Assembly (NCBI RefSeq): GCF_011044495.1
Contig: NZ_CP049143.1
Span: forward strand, 3,720,001-3,784,000
DNA: 64,000 nucleotides
From: Roseimicrobium sp. ORNL1
GTDB taxonomy: Bacteria > Verrucomicrobiota > Verrucomicrobiia > Verrucomicrobiales > Verrucomicrobiaceae
Direction: 5' to 3'
The translations under genes and the position numbers were made by a program. Every line of letters starts with the position of its first letter. Positions within the stretch are counted from its first letter, which is position 1. Below the pieces are notes generated by a model. The model ran no database searches. It saw only the letters and a list, made by a program, of their open reading frames with translations, and was not told the origin of the DNA. Shown here piece by piece: positions 3,510 through 45,904 of this stretch.

Positions 3510-3577
3510 GGGGATTTGTCTTGCCGTGAAGGTGGATTGTGGTGGAATGCCCCGCTTGTGCAAGCTGAAGCTGCCGT

Positions 3578-4390: not shown

Positions 4391-4452
4391 GTTTCGGCTC
4401 GGTGGGACGGTAAGCGGTAAGCGGTGCGACGGTAGATCAATTCTTCAAGGTT

Positions 4453-4860
4453 ATGGAGCCAGTCGCTGAGTTGTCATACATGGCTGAGTCGGTCGAGCTG
4501 GTGAGCGAATCCTACGCACCCGAAGATTGGCTCGTGGGGCTGCATTTTGGCGAGGGTGATCCCGAGGCTGGTGGTCAGCACTGGAACTTTACGAGGGACA
4601 CTACTGAAGATGACGATAGCGGCCTGACTGGAGTCTGCACGGTGAAGGAGATTCAAGAGGTCACTGTATACGGAGGCATCGAACGTTTCGAGCTCAGTTC
4701 GTCGCGTCTGGTCTGCCAGTTCGATGAGCGCGCCTCTGCGAAGACAGGCGTGAAGCGTCTATCTATTTCCTATGCCTTGGACTCCGAAACATGGGCCAAG
4801 GTGAAGGCTGAGGCGACGCGGTTGTTTGAAGGGGACAGCTGCCTTTCCATGGTGGAGTAG
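4453..4860 (+). CDS. hypothetical protein, possibly Imm10-like
   Basis: Acidic protein of 135 residues, soluble, without signal peptide or membrane segment. The second half (VYGGIERFELSSSRL followed by predicted strands and a terminal helix) recalls the Imm10 group of immunity proteins from polymorphic toxin systems, but this is from memory and not firm. No toxin gene is adjacent, so if it is an immunity protein it is an orphan. The stretch between parA and this gene (4391-4452) holds a short tandem of gcggtaa units. Confidence 0.6.
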   Translation: MEPVAELSYMAESVELVSESYAPEDWLVGLHFGEGDPEAGGQHWNFTRDTTEDDDSGLTGVCTVKEIQEVTVYGGIERFELSSSRLVCQFDERASAKTGVKRLSISYALDSETWAKVKAEATRLFEGDSCLSMVE

Positions 4861-4926
4861 TTGGAGCCGCTTTGATTTGGCAACATCAGATCTCAGATCT
4901 GGCGAAACCCCACTGCGGCTACTTTC

Positions 4927-5448
4927 GTGAACTCGCCAGACTCTGAACCAAACGACGAAAGGACCTTGGCCGGGGAGCTGCTGGCTCAACTGCTGAAGGA
5001 CCAAGGCCGCGGCCCCGGGCAGGTCATCTGTGCGGAGACGCGCAGCCGGAGCATGGGCCACAGGGAACGTGGAGAGAATATCCCGCTCATTGTTCTGCCC
5101 AAAGCCCGGGGTGAAGTGGTCCGACAATTTCGCGACGTGGCCCTGCGGAAGTGTCGGCTGGAGGAAGTCTTCGGCGATCTGGATGGGCTGGACCTGGACA
5201 TCCAAGAGTGGGAAGCCATTCAGGACTGCTTCACCGATTGCCGGATTGAGAGTGGATGGAAAACCTTTCGCGCTCGCTTTCCCCGGACCCGTGGGCTTTT
5301 GGAAGTGAGCTGCCCGGCTTTCTCCTCCGATTTCAGCCAGGCGATGATCGAGTACACGAACACGGGTGCATATGGGGAGTGCTGCCTCTATCAGAGGGAA
5401 AATGACGAATGGAGATTGGTGGAGAAGAAGTGCATCTGGTTCGCATGA
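4927..5448 (+). CDS. hypothetical protein
   Basis: Predicted soluble protein of 173 residues starting with GTG. I do not recognise a family. The N-terminal part is helical and charged (GELLAQLLKDQGRG). The C-terminal part looks like a beta-rich domain with the run AYGECCLYQREND and ends in two aromatic residues. It ends in an ATGA overlap with the next gene, so the two are probably co-translated. Nothing in the sequence suggests an enzyme. Confidence 0.6.
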   Translation: MNSPDSEPNDERTLAGELLAQLLKDQGRGPGQVICAETRSRSMGHRERGENIPLIVLPKARGEVVRQFRDVALRKCRLEEVFGDLDGLDLDIQEWEAIQDCFTDCRIESGWKTFRARFPRTRGLLEVSCPAFSSDFSQAMIEYTNTGAYGECCLYQRENDEWRLVEKKCIWFA

Positions 5449-5852
5449 GTGGCAATGTGATCACCCACCCCGCCATCTCCGTCGTCGCCCCTGCTGGTGA
5501 CTGGATTCGTGCCGGCAAAAAGACGCTGGAGATTCGGCGCTGGCAGCCGGAGGAGCTTCCGCTGCGGAACCTGGTGATTGTGCAGAATCACATCCGGCTG
5601 GGTAGTGACGGAACCACGGAAGATCCCGCTGGCATGGCCGTCGCGCTGGTGGATGTGGAGTCCGTCGAGGCATGGCGTGAAGACGAGATCGAGCCTGCCT
5701 GCGCGAGCTACTGGGAGCCAGGCTGGCTGGCGTGGCGATTGGTAAATGTGCGCCCCATCGAGCCACCACTTCCCTGCCCTGCCCGCTTGAGGATTTATTC
5801 GGTGGAGCTGCCGTTGCGCGGCGATGCGTTCAGGGTTATCACCATGGAGTGA
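5445..5852 (+). CDS. ASCH-domain protein
   Basis: Protein of 135 residues with the ASCH-fold signature near the N-terminus: a strand (ISVVAPAGDWI), then the GKKTLEIRRW motif, in which the lysine and glutamate match the conserved ASCH pocket. ASCH domains are RNA/nucleotide-binding beta barrels related to PUA, and some members are N4-acetylcytidine amidohydrolases. The ATG at 5445 is preferred over the one at 5409 because it makes an ATGA overlap with the upstream stop, as elsewhere in this cluster. It ends in a GTGA overlap with the HD-domain gene. Confidence 0.75.
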   Translation: MSGNVITHPAISVVAPAGDWIRAGKKTLEIRRWQPEELPLRNLVIVQNHIRLGSDGTTEDPAGMAVALVDVESVEAWREDEIEPACASYWEPGWLAWRLVNVRPIEPPLPCPARLRIYSVELPLRGDAFRVITME

Positions 5853-6484
5853 ATGTTGCTCTCCCCGACCGGCTCAGCCGCCAGCTTGGCTTCATTGTGG
5901 AGTCGGAACGGCTCAAATCCGTGCTGCGGCGGACGTCCCCCATCCACGCGACGGAGCGGAGGGAGAACTCCGCAGAGCATAGCTGGACCCTCGCGCTGAT
6001 GGCGATGGTGCTGGCTGAGCATGCGGAGGGAAATCCTGACTCTTGCAAGGTGCTCCGCATGCTGCTGATTCACGACTTGGTGGAGATCGATGCGGGCGAT
6101 ACTTTCTGCTACGACCTTGATGCCAATGTCACGAAGGCAGAACGCGAGGCCCGGGCGGCGGACGTCATCTTTGGCATGCTGCCGGAGGAACAGTCGCTGG
6201 AATACCGAAGCCTGTGGGAGGAATTTGAGGCCGGTATTTCAGCGGAGGCCAAGTTCGCCAATGCCCTGGACCGGTTGATGCCCACGCTACAGAACATGCA
6301 CAACGAAGGCGGGAGTTGGCGGGAGCATGGGGTGACCAGCGCACTGGCACTGGAGCGGAGTCGGCCCATCGGTGTCGGGATACCCACGCTCTGGGCGCAG
6401 GTGCAGACATATCTTGTGGAGGCAGAGCAGCAGGGGTGGCTGACGGCCACGCCAGCGGACAGCTCTCCCTTCCCTCCCTCATGA
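5849..6484 (+). CDS. HD-domain phosphohydrolase (YfbR/HDDC2-like)
   Basis: HD-superfamily metal-dependent phosphohydrolase of 211 residues. The metal ligands are visible as AEHSW (first His), HDLVEIDAGD (the HD pair) and a distal NALDRLMP aspartate. The arrangement matches the YfbR/HDDC2 group, whose studied members dephosphorylate deoxyribonucleoside 5'-monophosphates. I place the start at GTG 5849, which overlaps the upstream TGA as GTGA and begins just before the domain (VNVALPDRLSRQLG). It ends in an ATGA overlap with the next gene. The neighbours are other small nucleotide- and phosphate-handling enzymes. Confidence 0.85.
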   Translation: MNVALPDRLSRQLGFIVESERLKSVLRRTSPIHATERRENSAEHSWTLALMAMVLAEHAEGNPDSCKVLRMLLIHDLVEIDAGDTFCYDLDANVTKAEREARAADVIFGMLPEEQSLEYRSLWEEFEAGISAEAKFANALDRLMPTLQNMHNEGGSWREHGVTSALALERSRPIGVGIPTLWAQVQTYLVEAEQQGWLTATPADSSPFPPS

Positions 6485-7056
6485 AGAACGCCTCCCCCAC
6501 CCGCATTCACATCACCGGTGCCTCGGGCGCGGGATGCACCACAATGGGGCAGGCGCTGGCCGGGCGGCTGGAGTGGCCGCTGCTGGATACGGATGACTAC
6601 TACTGGCATGCGACGGTGCCGCTCTTCCAGCAGAAACGGGAGCCGGCGGAGCGCAATGTGATGCTGAAGCGAGACCTCGCCGCGCACCCGCAGTGCGTGA
6701 TTTCCGGCTCGGTGATGCGCTGGGACTCGGACCTCGATGATGCTTTTGATCTGGTGGTCTTCCTCCATGTGCCGGATGAGGTGCGCCTGCCCCGGCTCAT
6801 TGCGCGGGAGACGGAGCGCTTCGGCACGCCGGATGCGGAGTTCATCGCGTGGGCAGCAACGTACGAGACGGCAGATCTCACCACGCGTAGCCTGGCCTTG
6901 CACCGGCAGTGGCTGGCGGAGCGGAGGTGCGATATCCTGCCAATTACAGGCAACTACACCGTTGAGGCAAACGTGGTGCGAATACTCAATCACCTGGGAA
7001 AAACATCGTACTTGTCCCCGACCCCATCGCCATGCCCTACCTGCAGCTCGACGTAA
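6481..7056 (+). CDS. adenylate-kinase-like P-loop protein lacking the Walker lysine
   Basis: P-loop NTPase fold protein of 191 residues. The N-terminus reads ITGASGAGCTTMG, so the position of the Walker A lysine holds cysteine. It continues with LDTDDYYW, as in small-molecule kinases and adenylate-kinase-related proteins. I recall relatives with GSGTTT in the same place, so the missing lysine is probably a family trait rather than damage. The substrate is unknown. The start makes an ATGA overlap with the HD-domain gene, and the last 25 bases overlap the tautomerase gene. Confidence 0.75.
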   Translation: MKNASPTRIHITGASGAGCTTMGQALAGRLEWPLLDTDDYYWHATVPLFQQKREPAERNVMLKRDLAAHPQCVISGSVMRWDSDLDDAFDLVVFLHVPDEVRLPRLIARETERFGTPDAEFIAWAATYETADLTTRSLALHRQWLAERRCDILPITGNYTVEANVVRILNHLGKTSYLSPTPSPCPTCSST

Positions 7057-7439
7057 ACGGCCGCCACGCGGTGCACAACAAGCGCCAACTCGCCCAGCGC
7101 CTCTGTGAAACCTACGCCCGCCTCATGCAGGTGGACATCCGCCGCATCAGCGTGGCCATCCGCGAATCCGGCGAAGGCAGCCTCTGGCGCGTGGTGGATG
7201 GCGAGCCGGTGCCGGTGTCCGTGCTGATGTGCGACATCCGCCGTGGCCGCACCGCCGAGCAACGCATGGAAGTGGCCAAGGCCCTCTGCCACGACTGTTG
7301 CGAGGTCCTTGGCCTGCAGGAGGAGCGGCTGAATGTGGAGTTCACCCAGCACACCGGGGATGAGATGTATCACCCCACCTTGGGAGGATTCAGCCCGGAG
7401 TGGAGTGAGGAGGAGGTCGGTGCGACGGTGGGACAGTGA
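7032..7439 (+). CDS. tautomerase-superfamily protein
   Basis: Protein of 135 residues starting Met-Pro (MPYLQLDVNGRHAV). After removal of Met the N-terminal proline would be the catalytic base typical of the 4-oxalocrotonate tautomerase/MIF superfamily. The length fits the two-repeat members of that superfamily rather than the 60-residue single-repeat forms. The substrate cannot be told. It overlaps the end of the kinase-like gene in another frame and is the last gene before a 406-base non-coding gap. Confidence 0.75.
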   Translation: MPYLQLDVNGRHAVHNKRQLAQRLCETYARLMQVDIRRISVAIRESGEGSLWRVVDGEPVPVSVLMCDIRRGRTAEQRMEVAKALCHDCCEVLGLQEERLNVEFTQHTGDEMYHPTLGGFSPEWSEEEVGATVGQ

Positions 7440-7845
7440 CGTGATCGAAGGCGTCAGCAAGGTGGCTCGCACACTGTCCATGAACGTCAGGGTAAGAATA
7501 TAGAAACGGTGCCGAAGGCCTTGGACTGCGTGCAGCCTGCTGCCGCTTTCCCAAAGTGCAGCCTGCTGCACGCCTCACCGCGACGAAGTCGCCAAGCTCT
7601 TCTGGACACATCACACCACCAGCGAGCGTCACCATCGCCAAAGCAGGCTGCGCGCAGTCCAAGGACGCTGCGCGTCACAGTACCCGGATCTGTCGTGTGT
7701 ATCGTCCTTTGCGGTGAGGTCACCAGTTTTCTTATCGTGACAATCATGCATACTGCGGGACCGCCCGCCGTGAGCCACATTGCTGGCGTCTCCTTTCCGG
7801 GCCACGCTTGATTTTTTCCGACGTCCTGCGTAGGAGGAGTACTGA
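7440..7845. other. non-coding gap with dispersed-repeat-like sequence
   Basis: I see no convincing gene in these 406 bases. They hold a long imperfect inverted repeat and a 13-base direct repeat (listed separately), then a normal leader for the GNAT gene with a strong ribosome-binding site (aggagg at about 7831-7837). Short open frames here have no protein-like composition. Confidence 0.6.
7519..7664. repeat. long inverted repeat, 22-base arms, with internal direct repeat
   Basis: Left arm 7519-7540 starts ccttggactgcg; right arm 7643-7664 is its reverse complement with one mismatch. The loop of 102 bases contains a 13-base direct repeat (tgcagcctgctgc at 7531-7543 and 7557-7569), the first copy of which runs into the left arm. 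It looks like a dispersed non-coding repeat or a miniature element remnant and not a simple terminator. Confidence 0.7.
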
Positions 7846-33375: not shown

Positions 33376-35064
33376 ATGGCTAAGAAAGCCTCCTCTCCTC
33401 CCCTTCTGAAAAAAGCGCTGACGGGCATCACAGGCCTTGATGAGATCACGAACGGAGGCGTGCCCCAAGGCAGACCTACGCTCGTGTGCGGCTCGGCCGG
33501 CTGCGGCAAATCCTTGCTCGCAATTGAATTCCTCATCCGCGGCGCCATGGAATACAACGAGCCTGGCGTGCTCATGACCTTCGAAGAAGGCGTGGAGGAC
33601 ATCAAAAAGAACGTCGCCTCACTGGGCTTCGACGTTGACGATCTCATCGCGAAGAAAAAGCTCATCATCGACTACGTCCATGTCGAGCGCAGTGAAATCG
33701 AGGAAAACGGCGAATATGATCTGGAAGGCCTTTTCATCCGCCTCGGCTACGCGATTGATCAGATCAAGGCGAAGCGTGTGGTGCTGGATACCATCGAGAC
33801 GCTTTTCTCCGGCCTCTCCAATCAAGCCATCCTCCGCTCCGAGCTACGTCGCCTTTTCGGCTGGTTGAAGGACAAAGGCATGACCACCATCATTACCGGT
33901 GAGCGTGGCGAGGGCCAGCTCACCCGTCAGGGACTGGAGGAGTATGTCTCCGACTGCGTGATTCTACTGGACCATCGTGTGTATGGCCAGATTTCCACCC
34001 GCCGTCTGCGCGTGGTGAAGTATCGCGGCTCTACGCATGGCACGAATGAGTATCCCTTCCTGATCGATGAGAAGGGCATCTCCGTCCTTCCCATCACCGC
34101 CTCGGGCATGGACTACACCGTGTCCAACGAACGCGTCTCCAGTGGCATTCCGGCGCTGGATGAAATGCTGGGCGGCGGGGGCTTTTACAAAGGCAGCACC
34201 GTACTCCTCAGTGGTACCGCAGGCACCGGAAAATCGAGCGTTGCCGCGCATCTTGCAGACGCCACCTGCCGTCGCGGCGAACGCTGCCTGTATTTCTCCT
34301 TCGAAGAATCCGCCTCGCAGATTCAGCGGAACATGCACTCCATCGGGCTCCGGCTGGATCAGTGGGTGAAGAAGGGGCTGCTGCAGTTCCACACCACGCG
34401 TCCCACGGTGCATGGCCTGGAAATGCATCTGGTGCTGATGCACAAGCTTGTTTCCGAATACAAACCCACAGTGGTGATTGTGGATCCCATCTCCAATCTC
34501 CAGACCGCAGGCACGCTGGAGGACTCCTCCAGCATGCTCACTCGCCTGGTAGATTTCCTGAGGAAGGAGAAGATTACCGGATTCATGGTGAGTCTTGGAA
34601 CCATGGGCAACCAGCAGGAATCCACGGATGAGGGACTGAGCTCCATGGTAGATACCTGGATGCTGCTGCGTGACATCGAGCTCGGCGGTGAACGCAACCG
34701 CGCCCTTTACGTGCTGAAGTCGCGTGGCATGAACCACTCCAACCAGGTGCGGGAGTTCCTCATCACCTCAAAAGGTATCAAGCTCGTGGTCCCGTATCTC
34801 GGCGCCGAGGGCGTGCTCACCGGCTCCGCCCGACTCTCCCAGGAAGCGAAGGAGAAGGCGACCAGGCTTGCCCTCAAGGACGAACTCCGTCGTAAGGAAA
34901 TGGCCATGGAGCACCGCCGCAAGGCCATGCAGGCGCAAATCGAGGCACTCCAGGCCGGGTTCAAGGCCGAGGAGGAGGAGTTTGCCCGCATGCGCAATTC
35001 GAGCGTACTCGCAGCTGAGGCGTTGGATTTGGATCGAGATGCCATGGCACGCAGCCGGAAATAG
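33376..35064 (+). CDS. kaiC: KaiC-like double-domain ATPase
   Basis: KaiC-type protein of 562 residues with two RecA-like halves. CI: Walker A GSAGCGKS (Lys45), then FEEG with the catalytic glutamates. CII: Walker A GTAGTGKS (Lys286), then [13 protein letters not shown]. By alignment with the Synechococcus protein the CII phosphorylation sites Ser431/Thr432 correspond to Ser422/Ser423, and Thr426 to Thr417 ([13 protein letters not shown]). So the sites are kept with Ser replacing Thr. The C-terminal 65 residues form a charged coiled coil ([17 protein letters not shown]) instead of the short KaiA-binding tail. ATG 33376 begins the domain; longer upstream frames are not supported. Confidence 0.93.
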
Positions 35065-35095
35065 AACGAGAAGCGATAGAAGAGAACTCCCACTC

Positions 35096-35470
35096 ATGAG
35101 CGCAAGCGCCGCCAGGAAAAAACCAGCAAAGAAATCGGCCAAAAAAACGGTCAAACCGAAGGCAATTGCCCCTGATGGGCACGACCACGATAGCTGGAAG
35201 CTGCGTCTCTACGTCGCTGGCCAGACGCCGAAGTCGTTGACAGCGTTCGCCAACCTGAAGCGTCTCTGCGAAGAGCACCTCGCCGGCCGGTATGAGATCG
35301 AGGTTATCGACCTCGTGAAGAAACCGCAGCTGGCACAGAATGATCAGATTCTCGCCATTCCCACTCTGGTGCGGAAGCTGCCGGAACCGATCAAGCGCAT
35401 CATTGGCGACCTCTCGAACCTTGAGCGTGTGATGGTGGGAATGGACCTCAAACCCATTCCGCCGAACTAA
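35096..35470 (+). CDS. kaiB: KaiB-like protein (first copy)
   Basis: Protein of 124 residues: a Lys/Ala-rich leader (about 24 residues) and a full KaiB domain, [20 protein letters not shown] ... [22 protein letters not shown]. The thioredoxin-like fold and the IIGDLSN...MVGMDL C-terminal part match KaiB closely. It lies 31 bases after kaiC and 18 bases before the second kaiB, so it belongs to the same operon. Confidence 0.92.
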
Positions 35471-35488
35471 CCCGGCGGCCAGAGCATC

Positions 35489-35887
35489 ATGCCATCCCCC
35501 AAGAAATCTCCCGCTCCCAAAAAGGATGCTGCCGACGTGACCGAGGAATTTGAGCGTCTGCTCAAGGGTGTTCACGACGGTGAGCGCTATGTGTTGAAGC
35601 TCTTTGTCTCTGGCTCCAGTCCGCGCTCCACCCAGGCCATTGCGGCCATCCGCGCCATCTGCGATGAACGCCTCCAGGGGCGGTATGAGCTGGAAGTGGT
35701 GGACATTTTCCAACAACCGACCGAGGCCTCCGGCAGCCAGATTGTGGCCGCACCTACCTTGGTGAAACAGCTTCCCGAACCTGTGCGGCGCGTGGTGGGA
35801 AACCTCGCTGACAAGGACAAGATCCTAGTCGCCCTGAACCTGAAGGATGCCCCTGGCGATGCCTCTCCCACTTGGGCCAAACTATGA
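35489..35887 (+). CDS. kaiB: KaiB-like protein (second copy)
   Basis: Protein of 132 residues with KaiB domain (YVLKLFVSGSSPRSTQAIAA ... APTLVKQLPEPVRRVVGNLAD). Compared with the first copy it has a different leader (PSPKKSPAPKKDAADVTEEFERLLKG) and the loop EASGSQIVAA instead of [10 protein letters not shown]. The two are diverged paralogues and not a recent duplication. The last four bases overlap the kinase gene as ATGA, which indicates translational coupling. Confidence 0.9.
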   Translation: MPSPKKSPAPKKDAADVTEEFERLLKGVHDGERYVLKLFVSGSSPRSTQAIAAIRAICDERLQGRYELEVVDIFQQPTEASGSQIVAAPTLVKQLPEPVRRVVGNLADKDKILVALNLKDAPGDASPTWAKL

Positions 35888-37593
35888 ATCGAAGCGCGTC
35901 AGAATCTGCCGCTGCACGGAAGACAGCCGTTCAAAAGAAGGACGGCAAAGGTTATTGGATCAGCCAGCAGGAACTTGGCGCGCTCAATGACCGTCTCCGC
36001 GAGGCACAGGAAACACTTGAAGCCATTCGCAATGGCGAGGTGGATGCGCTCGTGGTGCACGGCGACAATGGCGCCCAGGTCTATAGCCTGGCAGGCTCCG
36101 ATCATCCTTATCGCGTCTATGTGGAGCAGATGAAGGAGGGCGCTGTCACGGTATCACCGGAAGGGCTCATTCTTTTCGCCAACCGCCGCTTTGCCGACAT
36201 GGTCGGACTGCCTTTGGAGAAAGTGATCAGTGAAAACCTGCAGCGCTTTGTCGCGGAAGAAGCGTGGAAGGAAGCGCTGGGCATCCTCAGTTCGGAGGAG
36301 GAATCCGTAAGGCTCGAGACGCAGCTGGGCGTGCGAAAAGGCACGACGCTTCCAGTCATGCTCACGGCCAGCAAGCTACCCTTACCCGAGGAGCAAGTCA
36401 TCTGCCTCGTGGTCACGGATCTCACTGAGCAGCGGGAAGCGGAAAGCACGCGCTTCGCGAAGGAAGTCGCCGAGCAGGCCAACCTTGCCAAGGACAGCTT
36501 CCTTGCTGCGCTGAGCCATGAACTGCGCACCCCGCTGACACCCGCATTGCTGGGATTGAAGCACCTTGAGGAATCCGACGAGATCGCCGGTGCCGCAAAG
36601 CGCGAGCTGGAGATCATCCGCCGCAACATCGAGCTGGAAGCCAGGCTTATCGATGACCTCTTGGACCTCACCAGGATCGCGCGCGGCAAGCTTGAGCTGA
36701 ACATGGCTTCCTCCGACCTCCATGGTGTGCTGGAGCAGGCGCTCGCCATCTGCCAGACGGAAGTCGAATCCAAGAACCAGGTGCTGGATCTTGAGTTGCA
36801 GGCGAAACATCACCAGAGCAGCATGGACCCGGTGCGCATGCAGCAGGTGCTGTGGAATCTCATCCGCAACGCCATCAAGTTCACTCCGGCCAAAGGCTCC
36901 ATTTCCATCCGCACCTGGAACAAGTCGCCCAAGAGCATCTGTGTTGAGGTCTCGGACAACGGCATCGGCTTCGAACCCGACATGGTGCGCAAGATGTTCG
37001 AGCCCTTTGAGCAGGGCGGCCGGCACATCACGCGGCAGTTCGGCGGACTTGGGCTGGGCTTGATGATTTGCCGCTCCATCGTAGAGCAGCACAAGGGCAA
37101 GCTGGAAGCGGAAAGCCCGGGCTCGTACAAGGGAGCGAAATTTACCCTGACACTTCCCCTGCACGCGGGGCATGAAACGAAGCATGGTTCCGGAAAGGCA
37201 AAAGACCCGTCCGCGCTCTTCCGCACGCCGCTCCGGGTGCTGCTGGTGGAGGACCATGCGGATACGCGCCGTGCCATGGAGCGCATCCTCCACAAATATG
37301 ATTGCGATGTGGTCTCCGCCGCCAATGCCCAGGAAGCAACCAAGGCAGCGGCTGACCATGCGTTCGAGCTGGTGATCAGCGATGTCGGATTACCGGATTG
37401 TTCCGGTCTCGAACTCATGGCGCAGTTGCACAAGAAGTTTGGCCTCGTGGGCGTAGCCGTCAGCGGCTACGGCATGGAAGACGACATCGCCGCCAGTCGC
37501 GATGCAGGATTCATCGAGCACCTCACCAAGCCCGTCACCGCCGAAGCGCTGAAGAGCATGCTCACACGCGTGGCAAAGCTGTTGCGGAAGTAG
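35884..37593 (+). CDS. PAS-type hybrid histidine kinase with C-terminal receiver
   Basis: Protein of 569 residues without membrane segments, hence soluble. Order: N-terminal coiled coil (ELGALNDRLREAQETLEAIR), PAS-like domain (about 80-185: EGLILFANRRFADMVGLPLEKVI), DHp with His212 in ALSHELRTPLTP, HATPase with NLIRNAIKF, DNGIGFEPDMV and GGLGLGLMI, and a receiver domain from about 455 (LRVLLVEDHADTRR) with phospho-acceptor Asp500 in ISDVGLPDCSG. It overlaps kaiB by ATGA. It probably reads out or feeds the Kai proteins, analogous in position (not in sequence) to SasA. Confidence 0.92.
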   Translation: MNRSASESAAARKTAVQKKDGKGYWISQQELGALNDRLREAQETLEAIRNGEVDALVVHGDNGAQVYSLAGSDHPYRVYVEQMKEGAVTVSPEGLILFANRRFADMVGLPLEKVISENLQRFVAEEAWKEALGILSSEEESVRLETQLGVRKGTTLPVMLTASKLPLPEEQVICLVVTDLTEQREAESTRFAKEVAEQANLAKDSFLAALSHELRTPLTPALLGLKHLEESDEIAGAAKRELEIIRRNIELEARLIDDLLDLTRIARGKLELNMASSDLHGVLEQALAICQTEVESKNQVLDLELQAKHHQSSMDPVRMQQVLWNLIRNAIKFTPAKGSISIRTWNKSPKSICVEVSDNGIGFEPDMVRKMFEPFEQGGRHITRQFGGLGLGLMICRSIVEQHKGKLEAESPGSYKGAKFTLTLPLHAGHETKHGSGKAKDPSALFRTPLRVLLVEDHADTRRAMERILHKYDCDVVSAANAQEATKAAADHAFELVISDVGLPDCSGLELMAQLHKKFGLVGVAVSGYGMEDDIAASRDAGFIEHLTKPVTAEALKSMLTRVAKLLRK

Positions 37594-37759: not shown

Positions 37760-39787
37760 TCACCCCAACAACTTCAACTCACCCGCACGTCGTATCGCCT
37801 CCGCACGGGTGCGACAGTTCAGCCGATCCAGCAAAGCTGCCACATGCATCTCCACGGTACGAGGGCTCAGGTGCAGTCTCTCCGCGGCCTCCTTGTTGGT
37901 GAAACCATCAGCAAGAAGCTGCAGTACGTCCCGCTGGCGGCCCGTGAGAAACTCTGCACCAGCACCTGCATCCTTCTCTTGGGAAACGCGCTGGCTTGAG
38001 ACGCTCGCGAGCAACGGACGCATGCCCAGATGCTTCGCGATGGCAGAAGCCGCATCTTCTTCCACCGCAGCCTCGCGCCCCTTCCCCACTTGGGAAAGCA
38101 GCCGCGCCAGACGCCGCCGCACCATGACTCGCTCAACTGGGGTACCGAGGCGATCATAGCCATCCCGCGAGGCGGTCAGGTGCACGAGGGCAGCTTGCAG
38201 GTCATTCTTTCCCACATCTCCCTCACCCAGCACCGCGAGACGTGCGGAGCGTGTCTCCTCGTTGTCATTGGCATTCACCACGGCATGGAGGATGTCCGTC
38301 GCCTGCGCCACGCGTTTCCATTCACCCTGGTCCGCGAAGAAGGCCGCAGCCGCCATTGCCCCCGGGGAAACATCATGACGGTCCTCCGTCTCACTCCAGA
38401 AATCCAGCAGTGCACCGTAGGCATGAGCGGCAGCAGTCGTCTCTCCACACGACTCAAAGCTGAACCCTTGCGCCCACATCAAATGAAACTCAAGGCTCAG
38501 TACGCCGTGACGCCGCATCTGCAGGGACGACTCCTCCATCCACTGCCGTGCCTGGCGATGCTCCCCACGGAAGGCGGCGATCAACGAGCGCACGCCCATG
38601 GATCCGGCCCGCAGCAAGGGATGCGCCTCTGGATCATCCATCACCTTCCTCGCAGTGTCCTGCGCCTGCTTCCATTCCCCCATGCGGAAGAAGGCATAGG
38701 ACAGGCACATCATGCAGGACTGCTCACCATCCTTCGCGCCCTGCTTCTTGCAGAGCCGGATGGCCTGCTGGTGCGCATCCCGCTCGCCCGCATAGTCACT
38801 CGCGTACTCGTTGAGATTTGCCATGCGCCGGTACGCATTGGACACCTCCGGCTCCAAACGATGCTCCACGGCGATGGCCATCGCCTTCTCGACCCGTTTG
38901 CGACCTGACGCCGCATCCCCCATCATGGACAAAAGGAGCCCCTCATAACTGAGCAACTGCGAGAGCAACGCCGGAGCCCCTTTGCTGCCCAGCAGATCAA
39001 TGGCATGCGTCAATGCGCGATGGGACTCGCGAGGACGAATCTGATCCGCAAGAAAAGAGGCAAAGGCGAACCACCGCTTGGCCGCCTCCTCAACCTCCCC
39101 AAACTTCTCTGCGAGTTCCGCGGAGGCCTGCAGATGCGTGCGTGCTGCGGCATAGTCGAGATTGAGGAGGGCGAGGTCAGCGAGTTGGTGATGCGCCTCT
39201 GCCTTCAGTTCATGATCCTTGGTGAAGTCGGCAACTCCCAACAACTCGCCCAGCTTGTCTTCCGCAAGATCGAGACGGCCACAGTTGCGCGCGCAGCGGA
39301 CCATTTCCTTCGTGAACTGAATCCGCAGATCCGTCTCTTCATCCGCAGGCCAGATGCGCAGTGCCTCTTCCAGCGATGTGAGCGCCTCGGGGTAGCGCTT
39401 TTCAGCACAGGCTTTCTCCGCCACCTTCACCCACAACCGCCGCGCTTCCGGGTAGCAGCAGGCGGCAGCGTAGTGTTTCGCCGCCTCTGCCTGCCTGTCC
39501 GTCCTCGGCAGCAGCAGGGATGCAATCTTTTCATGCAGCCGTCGCTGTACAGACCACGGCGTGCTTTGCAGCGTGGCAGCGGCATCCACTTTCTTTCCGA
39601 GCCGTGCCGAGTTTGCATCCACGGACTCCAGCAACCCTTGATCAAACAGTGTGTCGAGTTGCTGCGGAGTCACTCCCAAAGCCGCGAGCATCGGCAGGTC
39701 AATCTGGCCTTCGAGCAACGCGGCAGCCACGAGGGCAGTGTTGCCCAGGTCCCCGGCATCCGTTGCTGATGTCCGTTTTCGGCTCAC
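37760..39787 (-). CDS. LuxR-type regulator with helical-repeat domain
   Basis: Protein of 675 residues. The bulk is TPR-like helical repeats (for example AEKRYPEALTSLEEALRIWP, HYAAACCYPEARRLW, RRMANLNEYASDYAGERD). The C-terminal LuxR/GerE helix-turn-helix domain starts at about 612: LTGRQRDVLQLLADGFTNKE, then AAERLHLSPRTVEMHVAALL. The N-terminal AAA domain of MalT/LAL regulators is missing: the sequence starts with a winged-helix-like end of that region (LPMLAALGVTPQQLDTLFDQ). It is convergent with the Kai operon and might answer to its kinase, but nothing proves this. Confidence 0.85.
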   Translation of the reverse strand: MSRKRTSATDAGDLGNTALVAAALLEGQIDLPMLAALGVTPQQLDTLFDQGLLESVDANSARLGKKVDAAATLQSTPWSVQRRLHEKIASLLLPRTDRQAEAAKHYAAACCYPEARRLWVKVAEKACAEKRYPEALTSLEEALRIWPADEETDLRIQFTKEMVRCARNCGRLDLAEDKLGELLGVADFTKDHELKAEAHHQLADLALLNLDYAAARTHLQASAELAEKFGEVEEAAKRWFAFASFLADQIRPRESHRALTHAIDLLGSKGAPALLSQLLSYEGLLLSMMGDAASGRKRVEKAMAIAVEHRLEPEVSNAYRRMANLNEYASDYAGERDAHQQAIRLCKKQGAKDGEQSCMMCLSYAFFRMGEWKQAQDTARKVMDDPEAHPLLRAGSMGVRSLIAAFRGEHRQARQWMEESSLQMRRHGVLSLEFHLMWAQGFSFESCGETTAAAHAYGALLDFWSETEDRHDVSPGAMAAAAFFADQGEWKRVAQATDILHAVVNANDNEETRSARLAVLGEGDVGKNDLQAALVHLTASRDGYDRLGTPVERVMVRRRLARLLSQVGKGREAAVEEDAASAIAKHLGMRPLLASVSSQRVSQEKDAGAGAEFLTGRQRDVLQLLADGFTNKEAAERLHLSPRTVEMHVAALLDRLNCRTRAEAIRRAGELKLLG

Positions 39788-39806: not shown

Positions 39807-42800
39807 TTACCCCGCGGTCAAGTCCACGGGCCAGAGCGTTCGTGACACCGTGAAAATCAGCATCGTCTTCACCGAGGCCGCCGGCAGGCTGGCGAGGCGT
39901 TGCACGGCATCGTGATACAGCTTCAACTGGGGAAGGTAGCCCTGCACGCGTGTTTGCAGGACGGCTTCATCAGCAACCTCATCCGTCTTAAAATCCAAGA
40001 TGGTCGCGGAGGTAAACACGCCGTTGTCGTCCGTCTCCAGCACCACACGGTCCAGCGTGCCGGAGATCCAGCCATCTGCCGTGACCAGGTCAAAGCACTT
40101 TTCCATCCACACCTCGCGAGTAGCACCTCCGCGGGTGAACCACGCCTTGATCGAGGCATCCTCCAGTACCGCCCACGCCTGCTGCGCGGCCGCGGAGGCG
40201 AGGTCATATCCCCTCTCCTGCCAGTTGCCGCGCACATCTCCGGCGTGTTCCAGCCACGGCACCAGTGCCAGCATCTCGTGCACTTGCAGACCATGCAGAC
40301 GCTTCGCCTCGCGCACCGGTGAGGCGAACTCCTGCCCCGTGAGGCGGAAGGACTCTTCGCCCGAGGGCGCACGACGTTGCACGGTCGCATTCACCTCGCG
40401 CAGCAAACTTCCCAGCTTCGGACCTTCCCTGGCCTCAGCCTCGACACGCGGTGTCGGAAGCGCTTCGGAGAATGATTCATGCCAGAGCCGGTCGCCTGTT
40501 TCCCACAAGCATTGCGCGGTCATTCCACCCAACACATACGGAGTCGCCTCGCTGCTCACGAGCCGCTGCCTGAGAATACCAGCCTCATTGCTGTCGGAGT
40601 CGCGCTTGCGATCCGCCGTCATGGCATAGAGAGCGAGCTTCGCCCTGGTCATGGCCACATAGAGACGGCAAATGCCTTCGAAGGCACGTCTCGCCTGCTC
40701 CCGCTGCAGCTCCGCCTTGAGCGTGGCATCCGCTTCCACAATCACCTTCTCAGGCTTGTCGAGAATCCATTGTACTCCGCCGCGAGGACTGCGTGAGACA
40801 AAGAGGCGGTTGCGCGACACCGCATCCAGCGACTCGCCCTGCAACTCAGGCAGGATCACCACATCGAATTGCAGTCCCTTGCTCTTGTGCACCGTAAGAA
40901 CCTGGATGGCACGCGCACCCACCGCATCCTCGCGCAGTGCGTGAGAGCGTGCCCGACGCATGAAATCATCTGCATCACGGCTGCCTGTTTCATCGAAGGC
41001 CGCTGCGAAATCGAGAAGCTGCGTGAGGCGGCGTTCGGTGAAGGCGTCCATGGTGGTCAGCGCCTCGCGAAGCAGTTGCGACCAATCACGCAGCACCGGC
41101 AGAAAGCCCGAGGCGGAGACATCCCTTCGTACCCGCTCACTCAGTCGATAAGCGGTGATGGAATCTCTTTCCAGCACCTCTCCCAGCGGAGTCATGGTGA
41201 TATGCCGCCAGGCCATGGAGTCTGACGGATGCGCGCTCAGTTGCACAAGACTCAGCAGCGCCAGCGTGGCGGGATTGTCAATGAGTACCGTCTCCTCGCT
41301 CTCGCAGATCACCTCCACACCGAGGCGGGCACGCAAGGTATCACTCAGACGACGTGCCGTGTCGTTCTTCCGCAGCAACACAGCGCAAGTCAGCCCGCGC
41401 TCCAGGGGATTGATCTCGCGAATGAGTTCCACCACGGTATCCGTCAATGGATCGGCTTCGGTGCTTCCTTCGCCATCGCCCTCGGCTTTTCCTTCACCGC
41501 CTTCGTCACTCACATGGAGCATCGCGGCATGACCGGACAACGCTGCCACCTTGGGAGCGCACTGATGTTCATCAAACGTCCACAAGCGTCCCACCCCGGG
41601 GAACATGGCATCCAGCAATGTCTCCGCGTCCAGGAACACCCCGTTCACCATCTCCATCACCTGCGGGCAGGATCGGTAGCTCTTGTTGAGCGGCGTGATC
41701 TCGAGTCGCTCACCGGACCACGCATCCTCAACATGATGGAAGATCTCCGGCTCCGCCTGACGCCACAGATAGATGCTCTGCTTCAAATCGCCGACCAGGA
41801 AGACACTCCGCTCCTGCGCCGCATCCTGCCGCGCCTCCTCCAACAAGGGTGACAGCACCTCCCACTGACGTTCGCTCGTGTCCTGGAACTCATCCAGCAG
41901 CCAATGGTCATAACGCGCATCCATGCGGTACTCCACGGCAGTGCGGATGGCATCCCAGCCCTCCGCCAGTCCCGCGCCGAGGTGTCCACTGAGCAACCAC
42001 GCGAGATCTCCAAATACCAAACGCCCCCGCCCACGCACGAGACGATGATAGCTGCCCTCGTACACCTGCATGATACGGCACTGCGCGCGTGAGCGGCGGA
42101 TGTGAGTCTTGAGAACCGTGGTCACGATGGCCTCCAGCACATCGGCGAGTGCTGAGCCTTCATCCGGCGTGAGCATCCGCTTCTTCCACATCATCCACTC
42201 GGTCCCCCGCCGAAGGTCGGAATGCACTCCCCGCTTGGGATCCATCATGTAGAGCACTGCGCCACCCAGCTTGCCGGTGACAGGCAGCGTCCCGGCTTCG
42301 AGGAAGAAGTCGTCCCACTTGGCCTGGGCCCGCTTGTCGAATGTCCCCATCACCAGAATCGTCTGGAGGCGGTTCAATGCCGCGGTCAAATCAACGCCCG
42401 CCTTCTTGTCCGGCCAGATGACCGACTCCCCTCCCCAGCGGTCCACATCGGAGCACTCAATGTAGAGTTGATGCAACCTATTACACCATGATGACAGCGC
42501 CTCTGTGGGACGGTTCTGCTCATGACCGTGGCTCGCGTCCTTCCACGCCTCGCGCAGCTCATCCAGCAGGCTGCGGTCGTCGATACGCGTGATGGAGAGC
42601 ATGAGTGAATCCAGCACCTCGTCGCGTGCCTGGTTGAAATCTTCTTCGCCCATGAGCCCCGTCTGCCCTGTGAGGCCGAGCTCAAAGGGCAGGCACTGGG
42701 TCATCGCCATGAAGAAGGCGTCAATCGTGCCCAACCGCAGGCGATCCATCCGGCGCACCATCTTTCGAAGCAGCGTGATGGCCCCGGCGCCGGAAGGCTC

Positions 42801-43058
42801 CGAGCCGCGTGACGCCAACTCCTGCAGGATGCGCTCGAAGAATTCCCCCGCCGCCTTGCGCGTGAAAGTCATCGCGGCAATGCGCTCCGGATCCACACCA
42901 CGCTCGAGCAGCCACAGGTAACGCTGCACCAGCGCATACGTTTTCCCGGTGCCGGCCGAAGCGCGGATGAGTTCATTCTTCACTTCAGAGGTAGACGAGG
43001 AAGCGGAAGCCGAAACCGCGGCCTGTGTGCCCTGTGCAGGGGTGCGTTTGCGAGTCAT
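39807..43058 (-). CDS. UvrD/AddA-like helicase-nuclease
   Basis: Protein of 1,083 residues, a superfamily 1A helicase with C-terminal nuclease domain. Walker A is ASAGTGKT (Lys39), motif Ia TFTRKAAGEF, motif II LLDEFQDTSERQWE, and motif VI is recognisable in YVAMTRAKLAL. The nuclease motif ILDFKTDE is at about residue 1021. This is the AddA layout: resection of double-strand ends for homologous recombination. The start at 43058 makes an ATGA overlap with the AddB-like gene, so both are expressed together. The order is AddB-like first, AddA-like second. Confidence 0.88.
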   Translation of the reverse strand: MTRKRTPAQGTQAAVSASASSSTSEVKNELIRASAGTGKTYALVQRYLWLLERGVDPERIAAMTFTRKAAGEFFERILQELASRGSEPSGAGAITLLRKMVRRMDRLRLGTIDAFFMAMTQCLPFELGLTGQTGLMGEEDFNQARDEVLDSLMLSITRIDDRSLLDELREAWKDASHGHEQNRPTEALSSWCNRLHQLYIECSDVDRWGGESVIWPDKKAGVDLTAALNRLQTILVMGTFDKRAQAKWDDFFLEAGTLPVTGKLGGAVLYMMDPKRGVHSDLRRGTEWMMWKKRMLTPDEGSALADVLEAIVTTVLKTHIRRSRAQCRIMQVYEGSYHRLVRGRGRLVFGDLAWLLSGHLGAGLAEGWDAIRTAVEYRMDARYDHWLLDEFQDTSERQWEVLSPLLEEARQDAAQERSVFLVGDLKQSIYLWRQAEPEIFHHVEDAWSGERLEITPLNKSYRSCPQVMEMVNGVFLDAETLLDAMFPGVGRLWTFDEHQCAPKVAALSGHAAMLHVSDEGGEGKAEGDGEGSTEADPLTDTVVELIREINPLERGLTCAVLLRKNDTARRLSDTLRARLGVEVICESEETVLIDNPATLALLSLVQLSAHPSDSMAWRHITMTPLGEVLERDSITAYRLSERVRRDVSASGFLPVLRDWSQLLREALTTMDAFTERRLTQLLDFAAAFDETGSRDADDFMRRARSHALREDAVGARAIQVLTVHKSKGLQFDVVILPELQGESLDAVSRNRLFVSRSPRGGVQWILDKPEKVIVEADATLKAELQREQARRAFEGICRLYVAMTRAKLALYAMTADRKRDSDSNEAGILRQRLVSSEATPYVLGGMTAQCLWETGDRLWHESFSEALPTPRVEAEAREGPKLGSLLREVNATVQRRAPSGEESFRLTGQEFASPVREAKRLHGLQVHEMLALVPWLEHAGDVRGNWQERGYDLASAAAQQAWAVLEDASIKAWFTRGGATREVWMEKCFDLVTADGWISGTLDRVVLETDDNGVFTSATILDFKTDEVADEAVLQTRVQGYLPQLKLYHDAVQRLASLPAASVKTMLIFTVSRTLWPVDLTAG

Positions 43059-45904
43059 ACCCTGCCTCCTTTCCAAGCCTCGGGTGGCAGGGCTCCGCGC
43101 ATCACATCGCCTGCGAAGATCTCACTGAAGTCGTCATAGTCCGCCTCGCTGGCCGGTGGCCAGAAGATGCCATCTTTGATCTGTTGCACCGCACGCTCAG
43201 CGCAGAGCCAGGCGCTGGAAAGGAGATGCTCGTCCAGGCCTTCCCACGGGCGCAGCTTGATATCATCCACCGTGGCTGGCAGGCAGACATACGCGGCCTC
43301 GATCTCCCCGGCATCTGGCCACTTCCTACGCGCCGCCTCCACGTACAACGGAAGCTGCAGATCCGTCCAGTGCATGAGGTGCCCCTTGCCATCGGTGAAA
43401 TGCTTCCACTGCTGGGTTTCATCCGTGCTCTCCGCAGCGGGCACCTTGCGACGGTGCGCCCCTGCCGGTCCCTGCTTCTGGCGCGAGGTCTTGTAGTCCA
43501 CGATGCGCATCTTCCCCGTGCTGTCGTGGCGCTCCACGCGGTCGATGGTTCCGACCAGCGGCACATCACCAATCGTCACACCCCACGTAGCATCGATGCG
43601 CTCCTCCACAGCAATGATGCGCCAGCCATCGCTCCGTTGTTCCGCCTGCAAACTAGCGAAGGCGTGTAGACGCTGCCGCATCGACTCCGCCTGCAACGCC
43701 ACGGCAAAGAGCGGCTGCAATCCATGGCGTGCACGCACCTGCTTATCCAGCGCGTCCTCCAGCCATGAGGCGATCTCCCGCTCATTCGTACTCGTCGAGA
43801 TCAACGGGTCCTTCCCAAAGGATTCCAGCACGGAATGCACCAGACTTCCGAAGTCCGCCGGTGACATCTCTCGCTGCCCGCTCTCCACGGCTCCCATGTT
43901 GAGCACGCGCGAGAGATAGAAACGGAAGGGACAAGCCAGGTACGCGCGCAGGTCGGACGGCGAGATCTTTTGCGCGCGCCACTGCCGGAACTCCGGGCGC
44001 AATCCAAAGGCCATCGTGCGAGCCGGGCGTGGCTGACCGGCGCTCTCCTCTTCCTGGGGAAAGAGGTGCCGCACGCGCTCGGGCAGTTCTTCATCACTCG
44101 CATCCAGCAGCAGGCGCGAGGGACGCAGGGCATCGTTGTCCTTGCTCACCTTGCCGAGGATGACATGCAGCGCGCCCTGCTTCTCGCGCTGGCCGGCCAT
44201 GGCATGCAGCAGATACGTATCACGCGCGCGGCGTGTGGCCTGGCAGGAAAGGCCCAGCTTCTCCCGTGCTTGATCCGGCAGGAAGGGATCGCTGCCGGGA
44301 TTTCCGGGCACATGTTCATCATTAAATCCCGTGATGACCAGACCGGGAGCCGGTTCCCAGGGCAGTTCCAGCCAACCGTGGATCACCAGTTCCGCCTCGC
44401 CGCGCACATCACTCATCTGCCCTTCCTCTAGCGCGTCAAACACCTGGCCCAACAACTCCATCGCAGAAGCTTTGCCGCGCACCGCATCCACATCCGCCGC
44501 CAGTCGGAGCACCTCTCCGAAGATCTCACCGAAGTGGCGGTCCGACTCTTTCGCCGTGTCGAACGTGCGCGCGCCATACAGCCACAACAGGAAATCCCGC
44601 ACAGCTGTGACACATGACGCAGTGCCCCAGATTTCCGCGGCTCTCATGGCAGCGGAGAGTGCCGCATGCAGGCACGCATAGTCTTCCTTTCCCGCGGAAA
44701 GCTTCACCGCATCATCAATGGTCGGCGGAAGATGCGTCGCATGAAAATCATCCAGCTCCACGAGCACCTCTCCCGGCAAAGCCTTCGCCTCCCGGCAGAT
44801 CGCCTGCAGCACATCATCCATGCGCAGGAAGGGCAGCCAGCCACGCCAGGACGGTGCGGTCGCGGCCTTCCAGCCACAGCGCAACACTTGAGCAATGATG
44901 TGCTGCCGGGCCGAGCGACCTGCGGGATTGTACACCCGCGCACCTTCGGCAGAGAGCGTGCCTTCCAGCGTGCTGGCGAGTGCCTGGTCACAGGTACCAA
45001 TCGCCACCGGCCATCCCTGACCTGCCATGTCCGCCAGTAGCTTCACCGCGAGCCTCGACTGATCCTCCGGTCCGGGCACGCAACGCATGCGCGCATGCGG
45101 CACGGGACAGTTCAGCACGATTTCCGCCTCATCTCCCCACGCGGAGGACAGCGGCACACCCAGTTCACTGAAGCTCGTGCGCATGCTCTCCGGCGCGTGG
45201 ACGAAGATGTGCGTCTCGATCTGCTCCGGCAGGGAGCGCAACCATTGCAGGAAAAGCATCGGCGCATCTGCCACAGCACACACCAGGACGCGACGCACAC
45301 CTTCGGGAAGCACTGGATACATGGCCGCATGGCGCTTGTATTCCTGTGCATCTTCCAGCCCCCAGGCTTCGAGCTGTCGCAGGTAGTCCTGCTCCAGCGT
45401 CACCAGATGCTGCCAGCGCTCCGCGGAGTCCATGCCGGACAATTCCTCTGCGGCAGACTCCATGGTGTGCCCACCAGCGCCGAGGGCATGCCTTGTCTTT
45501 CTCAATGTCTCCGCCACGGCAGACGCCCATCCCAGGTCACGCGACTCCGGAAGCGAAGGAAACAGCGCCTCCATTTCCTCCACGCGAGCCCGCATCAGCA
45601 CTTCGCTCCACGCCATCCTTTCCTGCAGGACGGGAGCGATGGCATGCGAATGCTGCTGATCCGGGAGTGGATTCAGCGCACTCGCAGGATGCCACACATG
45701 CGGAGCCATCACCGCACTGTCGCGCTTGGCTGCCGCCTCCGCCAGAGCCTGCCGCAACCGACGCACCGCTTCCGCCGTGGGACACACGATGATGGCGTCC
45801 CCCAAGTCCAGCGCGCCCGCCTTCCATCCCGCAGTCAACTCCTCCACGGCATGCTCCAGCACCGGACGATCCCAGTTCCAGAAGTGAAGCGTGGCATTGG
45901 ACAT
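43055..45904 (-). CDS. AddB-like protein with PD-(D/E)XK nuclease domain
   Basis: Protein of 949 residues, partner of the AddA-like helicase. The N-terminal part resembles an inactive helicase (VCPTAEAVRRLRQALAEAA). A C-terminal RecB-type nuclease has YLACPFRFYLS (about 655), GSLVHSVLESF, VGTIDRVERH and IVDYKTSRQKQG (about 803). AddB of Bacillus binds a 4Fe-4S cluster with four cysteines around this domain. Here only the single cysteine of LACPFR is seen and no CxxC-type group is present near the C-terminus. So the Fe-S staple seems to be missing, as in some other lineages. Confidence 0.82.
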   Translation of the reverse strand: MSNATLHFWNWDRPVLEHAVEELTAGWKAGALDLGDAIIVCPTAEAVRRLRQALAEAAAKRDSAVMAPHVWHPASALNPLPDQQHSHAIAPVLQERMAWSEVLMRARVEEMEALFPSLPESRDLGWASAVAETLRKTRHALGAGGHTMESAAEELSGMDSAERWQHLVTLEQDYLRQLEAWGLEDAQEYKRHAAMYPVLPEGVRRVLVCAVADAPMLFLQWLRSLPEQIETHIFVHAPESMRTSFSELGVPLSSAWGDEAEIVLNCPVPHARMRCVPGPEDQSRLAVKLLADMAGQGWPVAIGTCDQALASTLEGTLSAEGARVYNPAGRSARQHIIAQVLRCGWKAATAPSWRGWLPFLRMDDVLQAICREAKALPGEVLVELDDFHATHLPPTIDDAVKLSAGKEDYACLHAALSAAMRAAEIWGTASCVTAVRDFLLWLYGARTFDTAKESDRHFGEIFGEVLRLAADVDAVRGKASAMELLGQVFDALEEGQMSDVRGEAELVIHGWLELPWEPAPGLVITGFNDEHVPGNPGSDPFLPDQAREKLGLSCQATRRARDTYLLHAMAGQREKQGALHVILGKVSKDNDALRPSRLLLDASDEELPERVRHLFPQEEESAGQPRPARTMAFGLRPEFRQWRAQKISPSDLRAYLACPFRFYLSRVLNMGAVESGQREMSPADFGSLVHSVLESFGKDPLISTSTNEREIASWLEDALDKQVRARHGLQPLFAVALQAESMRQRLHAFASLQAEQRSDGWRIIAVEERIDATWGVTIGDVPLVGTIDRVERHDSTGKMRIVDYKTSRQKQGPAGAHRRKVPAAESTDETQQWKHFTDGKGHLMHWTDLQLPLYVEAARRKWPDAGEIEAAYVCLPATVDDIKLRPWEGLDEHLLSSAWLCAERAVQQIKDGIFWPPASEADYDDFSEIFAGDVMRGALPPEAWKGGRV

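Follow-up and report, generated by a model that had tools for sequence, protein, structure and literature searches.

The closest described relative of the system considered here is the KaiBC pair of Rhodobacter sphaeroides, in which KaiC autophosphorylates without KaiA, helped by its C-terminal tail, and KaiB binds the CI domain after hydrolysis and favours dephosphorylated KaiC as the ATP/ADP ratio falls (PMC10076222). Such KaiBC-only systems are described as keeping time in an hourglass-like manner (PMC10076222; this paper, PMC3164672, PMC5520375, PMC10808063 and PMC10931921 are cited for the portions of their text that were available). Genes for kinases or GGDEF/EAL proteins beside kaiBC have been reported before, and the available portion of that report mentions no N-terminal segment shared by these neighbours (PMC3164672). 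The paper on the R. sphaeroides structures does not use the term 'histidine kinase' in its main text (PMC10076222). Here, we describe a kaiC-kaiB-kaiB-hybrid kinase cassette of Roseimicrobium sp. ORNL1, located in a stretch of 64,000 nucleotides (contig NZ_CP049143.1, positions 3,720,001 to 3,784,000), which is referred to in full as the window. The KaiC2 core of this cassette is ordinary and of a kind already known. Its new part is a second KaiB family together with a Kai-specific adaptor at the N-terminus of the fourth protein. The features of the cassette, in window coordinates, are the following:

33376..35064, plus strand: kaiC of the KaiC2 type, 562 amino acids, with two RecA-like domains and a long C-terminal tail
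34639..34644, plus strand: codons of Ser422-Ser423, the presumed CII phosphorylation sites, from the alignment of 101 KaiCs
34831..35061, plus strand: KaiC C-terminal tail beyond residue 485, aligned to the R. sphaeroides KaiC coiled coil
35096..35470, plus strand: kaiB1, a first-family KaiB of 124 amino acids (PF07689, 93.5 bits; KaiB trees)
35489..35887, plus strand: kaiB2, a second-family KaiB of 132 amino acids (PF07689, 83.2 bits; KaiB trees)
35884..37593, plus strand: soluble hybrid histidine kinase of 569 amino acids (segment, PAS, HisKA, HATPase and receiver; Pfam)
35971..36132, plus strand: Kai-specific N-terminal kinase segment (helix-like stretch, GEVDALVV motif and PAS start; profile A5, 99.7 bits)
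36109..36417, plus strand: PAS domain of the kinase (PF00989, residues 76-178)
36487..37164, plus strand: HisKA and HATPase_c of the kinase (PF00512, PF02518), with the phospho-acceptor expected at His212 (SHELRTP at residue 211)
37237..37563, plus strand: receiver of the kinase (PF00072, residues 452-560), with the phospho-acceptor expected at Asp500 (VISDVGLPD at residue 497)

KaiB matches above the PF07689 cut-off were found in 20 of 387 genomes of Verrucomicrobiota, 37 of 398 of Pseudomonadota, 15 of 246 of Planctomycetota and 25 of 247 of Bacteroidota; the phylum names outside Verrucomicrobiota rest on the named centre record of each search (Azospirillum, Planctomycetales, Daejeonella). 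Most of the KaiB loci found were scanned together with the window and 15 named loci, 115 in all, and the order kaiC-kaiB-kaiB followed by a PAS-bearing gene was read in 38 of them and in one annotated plasmid. These 39 tandem loci belong to Verrucomicrobiota, Planctomycetota, Bacteroidota, Pseudomonadota and, with a single locus (L012), Thermodesulfobacteriota. They include L166, although 939 bases separate its two KaiBs, and contig ends or frame breaks cut some genes in L005, L012, L142, L151 and L228. A KaiB pair is present in 13 of the 20 KaiB-bearing genomes of Verrucomicrobiota, 4 of 37 in Pseudomonadota, 4 of 15 in Planctomycetota and 10 of 25 in Bacteroidota, and the remaining ones have a single KaiB, the kaiB-kaiC order or further layouts. 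With its gene order repeated in 39 loci across five phyla, the cassette is more than a chance arrangement. The initial annotation of this DNA had asked whether relatives also possess the second kaiB and the kinase, and they do. The combination of two KaiBs with a kinase, to which it drew attention, is not special to this organism, and kinases beside kaiBC had already been reported (PMC3164672). What is noteworthy instead is the old second-KaiB family and the Kai-specific N-terminal segment of the fourth protein.

The proteins encoded downstream of the KaiB pair begin alike, with a helix-like stretch, a GEVDALVV-like motif (in its strict form in 26 of 38 tandem-locus proteins) and a YR..(V/I)E.M stretch running into a PAS domain, which follows the segment in all 38. 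Profile A5, which spans 54 positions and was built from 20 rows, 18 of them from tandem loci, matches 38 of the 38 scanned tandem loci. It also matches 21 other scanned loci, two of which are the same place, and each of three annotated plasmid loci, one of them that of R. sphaeroides. The N-terminal 85 amino acids of the window kinase match no Pfam family over its cut-off. The A5 match in this kinase is the sole one reported in the genome, where 17 of 43 first-look candidates were scored and weak copies could be missed; the other genome scans likewise scored part of the candidates where these were many, so that weak further copies are possible.

In Verrucomicrobiota, A5 matches once in each of 16 of the 387 genomes, all 16 KaiB-bearing, and in none of the 367 genomes without a KaiB over the cut-off. 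Fifteen of these matches lie 57-402 bases past the KaiB domain on the same strand, and the exception (L254; G040, contig C49, 6085-6480) is a broken-frame segment gene on another contig than the KaiB. The 247 Bacteroidota genomes yielded 18 strong matches, one per genome, all in KaiB-bearing genomes and 53-305 bases past the KaiB; one marginal match (G1281; 8e-4, 21.8 bits, 21 of 54 positions) among the 222 genomes of this phylum without KaiB is not counted among the 18. When both phyla are pooled (634 genomes), all 34 strong matches fall in KaiB genomes and 33 of them lie 53-402 bases downstream of the KaiB domain. The Fisher p-values for the association of segment and KaiB (5e-25 in Verrucomicrobiota, 5e-22 in Bacteroidota) overstate the independence of the observations, because the genomes are related. 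The segment is nearly exclusive to Kai loci in these two phyla. It also goes along with the type of KaiC: of the loci with a full KaiC, 52 of the 59 with a long tail carry it, compared with 4 of the 37 that lack such a tail. A literature search, which covered few subscription papers, returned no description of paired KaiB families or of the segment. As separate observations, L007 from Bacteroidota has a long-tailed KaiC2 with no segment-bearing partner in its stretch and no KaiB in its genome, and L196/L255 (G1116) also has a long-tailed KaiC2 without such a partner in the stretch, L255 being a kaiC-kaiB locus followed by a receiver gene.

The second element, the KaiB pair, divides into two families. 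In trees built on 86 columns, the 39 first and 38 second KaiBs, as defined by gene position, are the two sides of one branch, with support of 100/100 and in all 200 bootstrap trees. When 26 KaiBs of the kaiB-kaiC type and of cyanobacteria are added (103 rows), the first, the second and the outer KaiBs each form one set, with support of 98, 86 and 91. A constraint grouping the Bacteroidota KaiBs is rejected (p-AU 0.0006), and a duplication specific to Bacteroidota with it. In a tree of 150 rows, to which single and diverged KaiBs were added, the first KaiBs stay together along with 10 single ones. The split is still 100/100 when ten single KaiBs, picked after the 150-row tree was known, are added to the 77 rows. 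The first family includes the R. sphaeroides KaiB (in a 40-row set, 97/87) and the second includes the single KaiBs of L157 and L235. The division of first and second KaiBs into two families indicates that the pair is old, and the simplest reading of the unrooted tree would be a single old KaiB pair, one of whose members was lost repeatedly. The second KaiBs are the less conserved, with a mean column identity of 42% versus 57% in the first, and carry a DIYQQP-like stretch where the first KaiBs have DLLKNP. Rows dropped before tree building were the second KaiB of L151 (frame break), matches of fewer than 60 profile positions, KaiBs classed as 'other', L175 (the same place as L008) and L009; the last, a single-KaiB row, was wrongly taken for a copy of L008, with which it shares 5% of 31-mers, and no tandem count is affected. 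In a further group of loci from Pseudomonadota (L213, L215, L218, L223, L224), a receiver gene stands between two KaiBs, before kaiC, and the second KaiB is diverged; in L213 and L215 an additional, first kaiC follows the first kaiB.

Within the cassette itself, the genes are separated by 31 bases (kaiC/kaiB1) and 18 bases (kaiB1/kaiB2), and kaiB2 and the kinase gene overlap by four bases (ATGA). The ATG is the likely start of the kinase and not a proven one, since the same frame also offers an open TTG start 12 bases farther upstream. The tight string of genes given in the initial annotation, with these spacings, agrees with the coordinates. Its naming of the products is borne out by Pfam and NCBIfam, which place two KaiC domains in KaiC, one KaiB domain in each small protein and PAS-HisKA-HATPase-receiver in the kinase. 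The solubility of the kinase fits its peak 19-residue mean hydropathy of 1.09, and the remark of the initial annotation that no KaiA-like gene is near extends to the whole genome, where PF07688 has no match (the control rings in Synechococcus elongatus; chimeric KaiA3-type proteins were not specially searched). The genome contains exactly two KaiB matches, both in the cassette. Promoter-like sites (2 found versus 0.9 expected) and terminator-like sites (2 versus 4.9) are uninformative.

The KaiC of the window scores 735 bits with NCBIfam PRK09302 (cut-off 408) and 358 bits with the cyanobacterial equivalog circ_KaiC, under the cut-off of 546. Its best solved relative by phmmer is PDB 8DBA (669.6 bits over residues 13-561, including the tail), which is the R. 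sphaeroides KaiC (PMC10076222); the highest score of a chain from any other entry is 378 bits. The named KaiCs closest to that of the window come from Verrucomicrobiota (L003, L004), and in the KaiC tree R. sphaeroides is found in an 11-row set (support 98) with six tandem loci. In the alignment of 101 KaiCs, the columns of Ser422 and Ser423 read Ser-Thr or Ser-Ser in relatives, in line with the earlier assignment of the CII sites. The two serines, whose loss in homologues would by the initial annotation have pointed to a chance neighbourhood, are conserved in 37 of 39 tandem-locus KaiCs, the exceptions reading AS (L142) and TA (L155); Ser-Ser also occurs in 16 of 32 KaiCs of the kaiB-kaiC type, so it is not confined to tandem loci. 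The tail past residue 485 measures 70-118 residues in 37 of 39 tandem-locus KaiCs, 0 and 6 residues in the other two (L015, L143) and mostly 18 in the kaiB-kaiC type. The long coiled-coil C-terminus of the initial annotation stands as to its length and as to the alignment with R. sphaeroides KaiC through residue 561; the coil itself is suggested by this alignment alone, and the tail is probably a coiled-coil extension of the R. sphaeroides kind. All 39 tandem-locus KaiCs retain Trp428, the counterpart of Trp419 in the R. sphaeroides allosteric path, where all 32 KaiCs of the kaiB-kaiC type have Ile; the same 39 also retain, in both domains, the P-loop lysines and the pairs of catalytic glutamates. 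The window thus combines two KaiC domains with P-loops and glutamates, a CII Ser-Ser, a C-terminal extension of about 50 residues or more (by alignment), an adjacent kaiB and no kaiA. The R. sphaeroides kind is further marked by a KaiC dodecamer and by phosphorylation that cycles with ATP/ADP and independently of KaiA, which the window KaiC may share. Because Ser-Ser and the long tail are marks of the published KaiC2 group (PMC5520375, PMC10076222), this core is of a known kind. The initial annotation was right in seeing a real module, and the features it stressed in KaiC, namely Ser-Ser, the long tail and independence from KaiA, are not peculiar to it.

The part that follows the segment and its PAS domain varies between loci. 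HisKA kinases occupy this place in 31 tandem loci and 9 others, an HWE kinase in L230 and also in R. sphaeroides, and HisKA_3 kinases in L155, L156 and L158. A sigma-54 activator is found in L165, GGDEF-EAL in L219 and HD-GYP in six Bacteroidota loci by sequence, two of which were checked with Pfam. Contig ends truncate three of the tandem-locus genes, and no output class was assigned to L012, L221 or L232. A contrast of kinase and non-kinase outputs between tandem and single loci was rejected and its p-value not used, as two unclassed genes had been counted as non-kinase and related species were mixed. The joining of segment-PAS to exchangeable output parts makes it a candidate adaptor feeding outputs, and argues that it may receive the Kai state and hand it on to the domain behind it. 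In the 115 scanned loci, none of the reading frames that bear a KaiB also matches a kinase, PAS or receiver profile. Candidate KaiB-kinase fusions, seen as long open frames in genome tables, proved to be overlapping frames.

What the genomes themselves display is the conserved gene order, the division of the KaiBs into two families, the confinement of the segment to Kai loci in two phyla and its exchange among output domains. From the homology to R. sphaeroides we infer how binding, phosphorylation, the direction of signalling and timing would be expected to work in the cassette. The reading that we favour, with a probability a little above one half, is a KaiA-free KaiBC timer of the KaiC2 type, working as an hourglass or as a gauge of the energy state, with an output arm of its own. 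It is supported by the KaiC alignment and the retained Trp428, P-loops and glutamates, by the recurring gene order and the two KaiB families, by the near exclusiveness of the segment and its varied output parts, and by the KaiB models. At high ATP, KaiC would autophosphorylate at Ser422/Ser423 with the aid of the coiled-coil tail. After ATP hydrolysis in CI, KaiB1 would switch its fold and bind CI, and dephosphorylation would become faster as ATP/ADP falls. The product of the fourth gene would read the state of the KaiC ring through the Kai-specific segment and PAS, and this reading would set the activity of the histidine kinase and receiver. KaiB2, an old paralogue with a predicted preference for the fold competent to bind, would most likely occupy the CI sites used by KaiB1, where it could either compete with KaiB1 or bring the kinase to the KaiC ring. 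SasA, the kinase of the cyanobacterial clock, recruits itself to the KaiC ring by its own KaiB-like domain.

A further-reaching version of this timer is conceivable, although we consider it rather doubtful as a whole. In it, the cassette would be an ancient timing device of at least five phyla, in which KaiB2 is held in the KaiC-binding fold and forms a split SasA-like output unit with the N-terminal adaptor. The adaptor would have been swapped among histidine kinases, cyclic di-GMP enzymes and sigma-54 activators, and R. sphaeroides would be a reduced form that has lost the second KaiB. For the favoured timer itself, the structural models of the two KaiBs are part of the supporting evidence. 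The AlphaFold2 model of KaiB2, made with the family alignment, has the fold-switched order beta-alpha-beta-alpha-beta-beta-alpha with a mean predicted local distance difference test score (pLDDT) of 80.1, about 83-93 in the domain, and its best structural matches are 4KUN (Z 15.8) and fold-switched KaiB. The model of KaiB1 takes the ground-state fold with low confidence, and its best 17 Foldseek rows are all KaiB crystals, which we take to be ground-state KaiB. KaiB2 is thus predicted to stay in the thioredoxin-like fold. KaiB variants have been predicted or shown to favour either fold, and the substitutions I68R, V83D and N84R flip the R. sphaeroides KaiB (PMC10808063); these positions were matched by letters to the deposited R. 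sphaeroides protein, where the numbering is one lower. The window KaiB2 reads V, V and A at the three positions, so its own sequence does not require the switched state. The KaiBs of the kaiB-kaiC type are aliphatic at positions 68 and 83 in 21 of 24 cases each.

Several results weigh against the timer with an output arm or against the part given in it to KaiB2. The KaiB1 model is weak (pLDDT 60.5), and although second KaiBs have an aliphatic residue at position 68 in only 24 of 37 cases versus 38 of 38 first KaiBs, and at position 83 in only 15 of 37 versus 37 of 38, the window KaiB2 itself reads V, V and A. A special likeness of KaiB2 to SasA was considered and rejected: SasA 6X61 is matched with an E-value of 3e-4 versus 0.067 for KaiB1, but the profile control failed. 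The profile of second KaiBs gives 28.6 bits to 6X61, that of first KaiBs 15.7 and that of ordinary kaiB-kaiC type KaiBs 31.0, and the likeness is not special because this control scores as high. In the 150-row tree, 24 of 38 second KaiBs group together and 14 of 38 sit on long branches outside, and the starred branches force at least three changes; long-branch effects and multiple origins of the second KaiB are both possible reasons for this scatter. The segment is lacking in the stretch seen in 7 of the 59 loci with a long-tailed KaiC, in some due to contig ends. It is also found where a single KaiB remains, and hence need not touch KaiB2. Since loci left with one KaiB, whichever its family, still have the segment, KaiC or a face common to both KaiBs is a likelier partner of the segment than KaiB2 alone.

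Alternatively, the kinase may be the input device of the system, its PAS domain sensing redox or a ligand and setting the state of KaiC or KaiB, and KaiC acting elsewhere. A kinase beside kaiBC has indeed been proposed as an input rather than an output for R. sphaeroides (PMC5520375, PMC10931921), and the PAS domain found behind the segment in the 38 tandem-locus proteins would suit a sensor. However, segment-PAS also stands on HD-GYP, GGDEF-EAL and sigma-54 activator proteins in the place of the kinase, and output fits better than input, because such end parts handle second messengers or drive transcription; we therefore regard the input role as improbable. It is also conceivable that the system keeps no time and instead gauges stress or ATP/ADP, in the way reported of a Legionella KaiB, and that KaiB2 has a thioredoxin fold but does not associate with KaiC; to this proposal we likewise give a low probability. 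It draws on the top match of the KaiB2 model, the Legionella KaiB 4KUN, on the report that a KaiB of this species crystallised in the fold-switched state and serves the stress response and not rhythms (PMC10808063), and on the patchy occurrence of Kai loci, with KaiB above its cut-off in 20 of the 387 genomes of Verrucomicrobiota. Nevertheless, the closest relative with a solved structure, R. sphaeroides KaiC, keeps a KaiB-dependent phosphorylation cycle (PMC10076222), and gauge and hourglass are compatible with each other. A chance neighbourhood of clock-like genes, for which the patchy distribution of Kai genes might again be cited, is next to impossible given the same order in 39 loci of five phyla and the age of both KaiB families.

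For the favoured timer with its own output arm, the recurrence in five phyla suggests how clock-like KaiBC systems of non-cyanobacterial organisms could relay their signal. The segment, which can be deleted or swapped, and the adjacent second KaiB family make it testable in laboratory strains how such systems hand on their state, and the segment can serve as a search handle for KaiC outputs in genomes. If the split output unit were true, one timer design would drive many outputs.

The surroundings of the cassette contain other genes. Its convergent neighbour (window 37760-39787, minus strand) encodes a tetratricopeptide repeat protein with a LuxR-type (GerE) DNA-binding end, and beyond it lie two genes that overlap each other, one for a UvrD-type helicase and one for a PD-(D/E)XK nuclease, an AddAB-like pair (39807-45904, minus strand). 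Elsewhere in the same genome (L258; C1:4601000-4613000), a distant KaiC-like gene (28% identity) overlaps a gene for a PAS-GAF hybrid kinase (2991-7471 of that stretch, minus strand), and neither KaiB nor the Kai-specific segment was found in the stretch. This pair resembles the kaiC-kinase pairs without kaiB described in the available portion of PMC3164672.

Compared with known systems, the cassette is nearest to the R. sphaeroides KaiBC (PMC10076222; 8DBA, 8FWI, 8FWJ), with which it shares the KaiC2 Ser-Ser, the coiled-coil tail, the Trp of the allosteric path, the absence of KaiA, the kaiC-kaiB-kinase order and a kinase that starts with the segment (54.7 bits in R. sphaeroides). R. sphaeroides differs in having one KaiB, of the first family, and an HWE kinase without a receiver; in the window there are two KaiBs, and the kinase is a hybrid of the HisKA class. 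Plasmid p3 of Pararhizobium qamdonense (NZ_CP119568.1) has kaiC-kaiB-kaiB-response regulator, with the last two genes overlapping and the segment at 86.8 bits; it is an alphaproteobacterial plasmid whose gene order is known from annotation alone. Ranked by Z, the structure that best matches the KaiB2 model is the KaiB of Legionella pneumophila (Lpp1115, 4KUN), whose sequence scores 98.9 bits with the profile of the second family, 96.1 with the kaiB-kaiC type and 73.8 with the first. Ramlibacter-type kaiC-kinase pairs also have a dedicated kinase after kaiC, but kaiB is absent there and the N-terminus of the kinase is likened to SasA/KaiB (PMC3164672). Cyanobacterial KaiABC with SasA has in common with the window the functional roles of KaiC, KaiB and a KaiC-reading kinase. 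The window differs from it in the absence of a KaiA match (PF07688) from the genome, in a KaiC below the circ_KaiC cut-off with Ser-Ser and not Ser-Thr, and in a kinase in which Pfam finds no KaiB match, so that the built-in KaiB-like domain that defines SasA is missing and a separate KaiB2 is encoded next to it.

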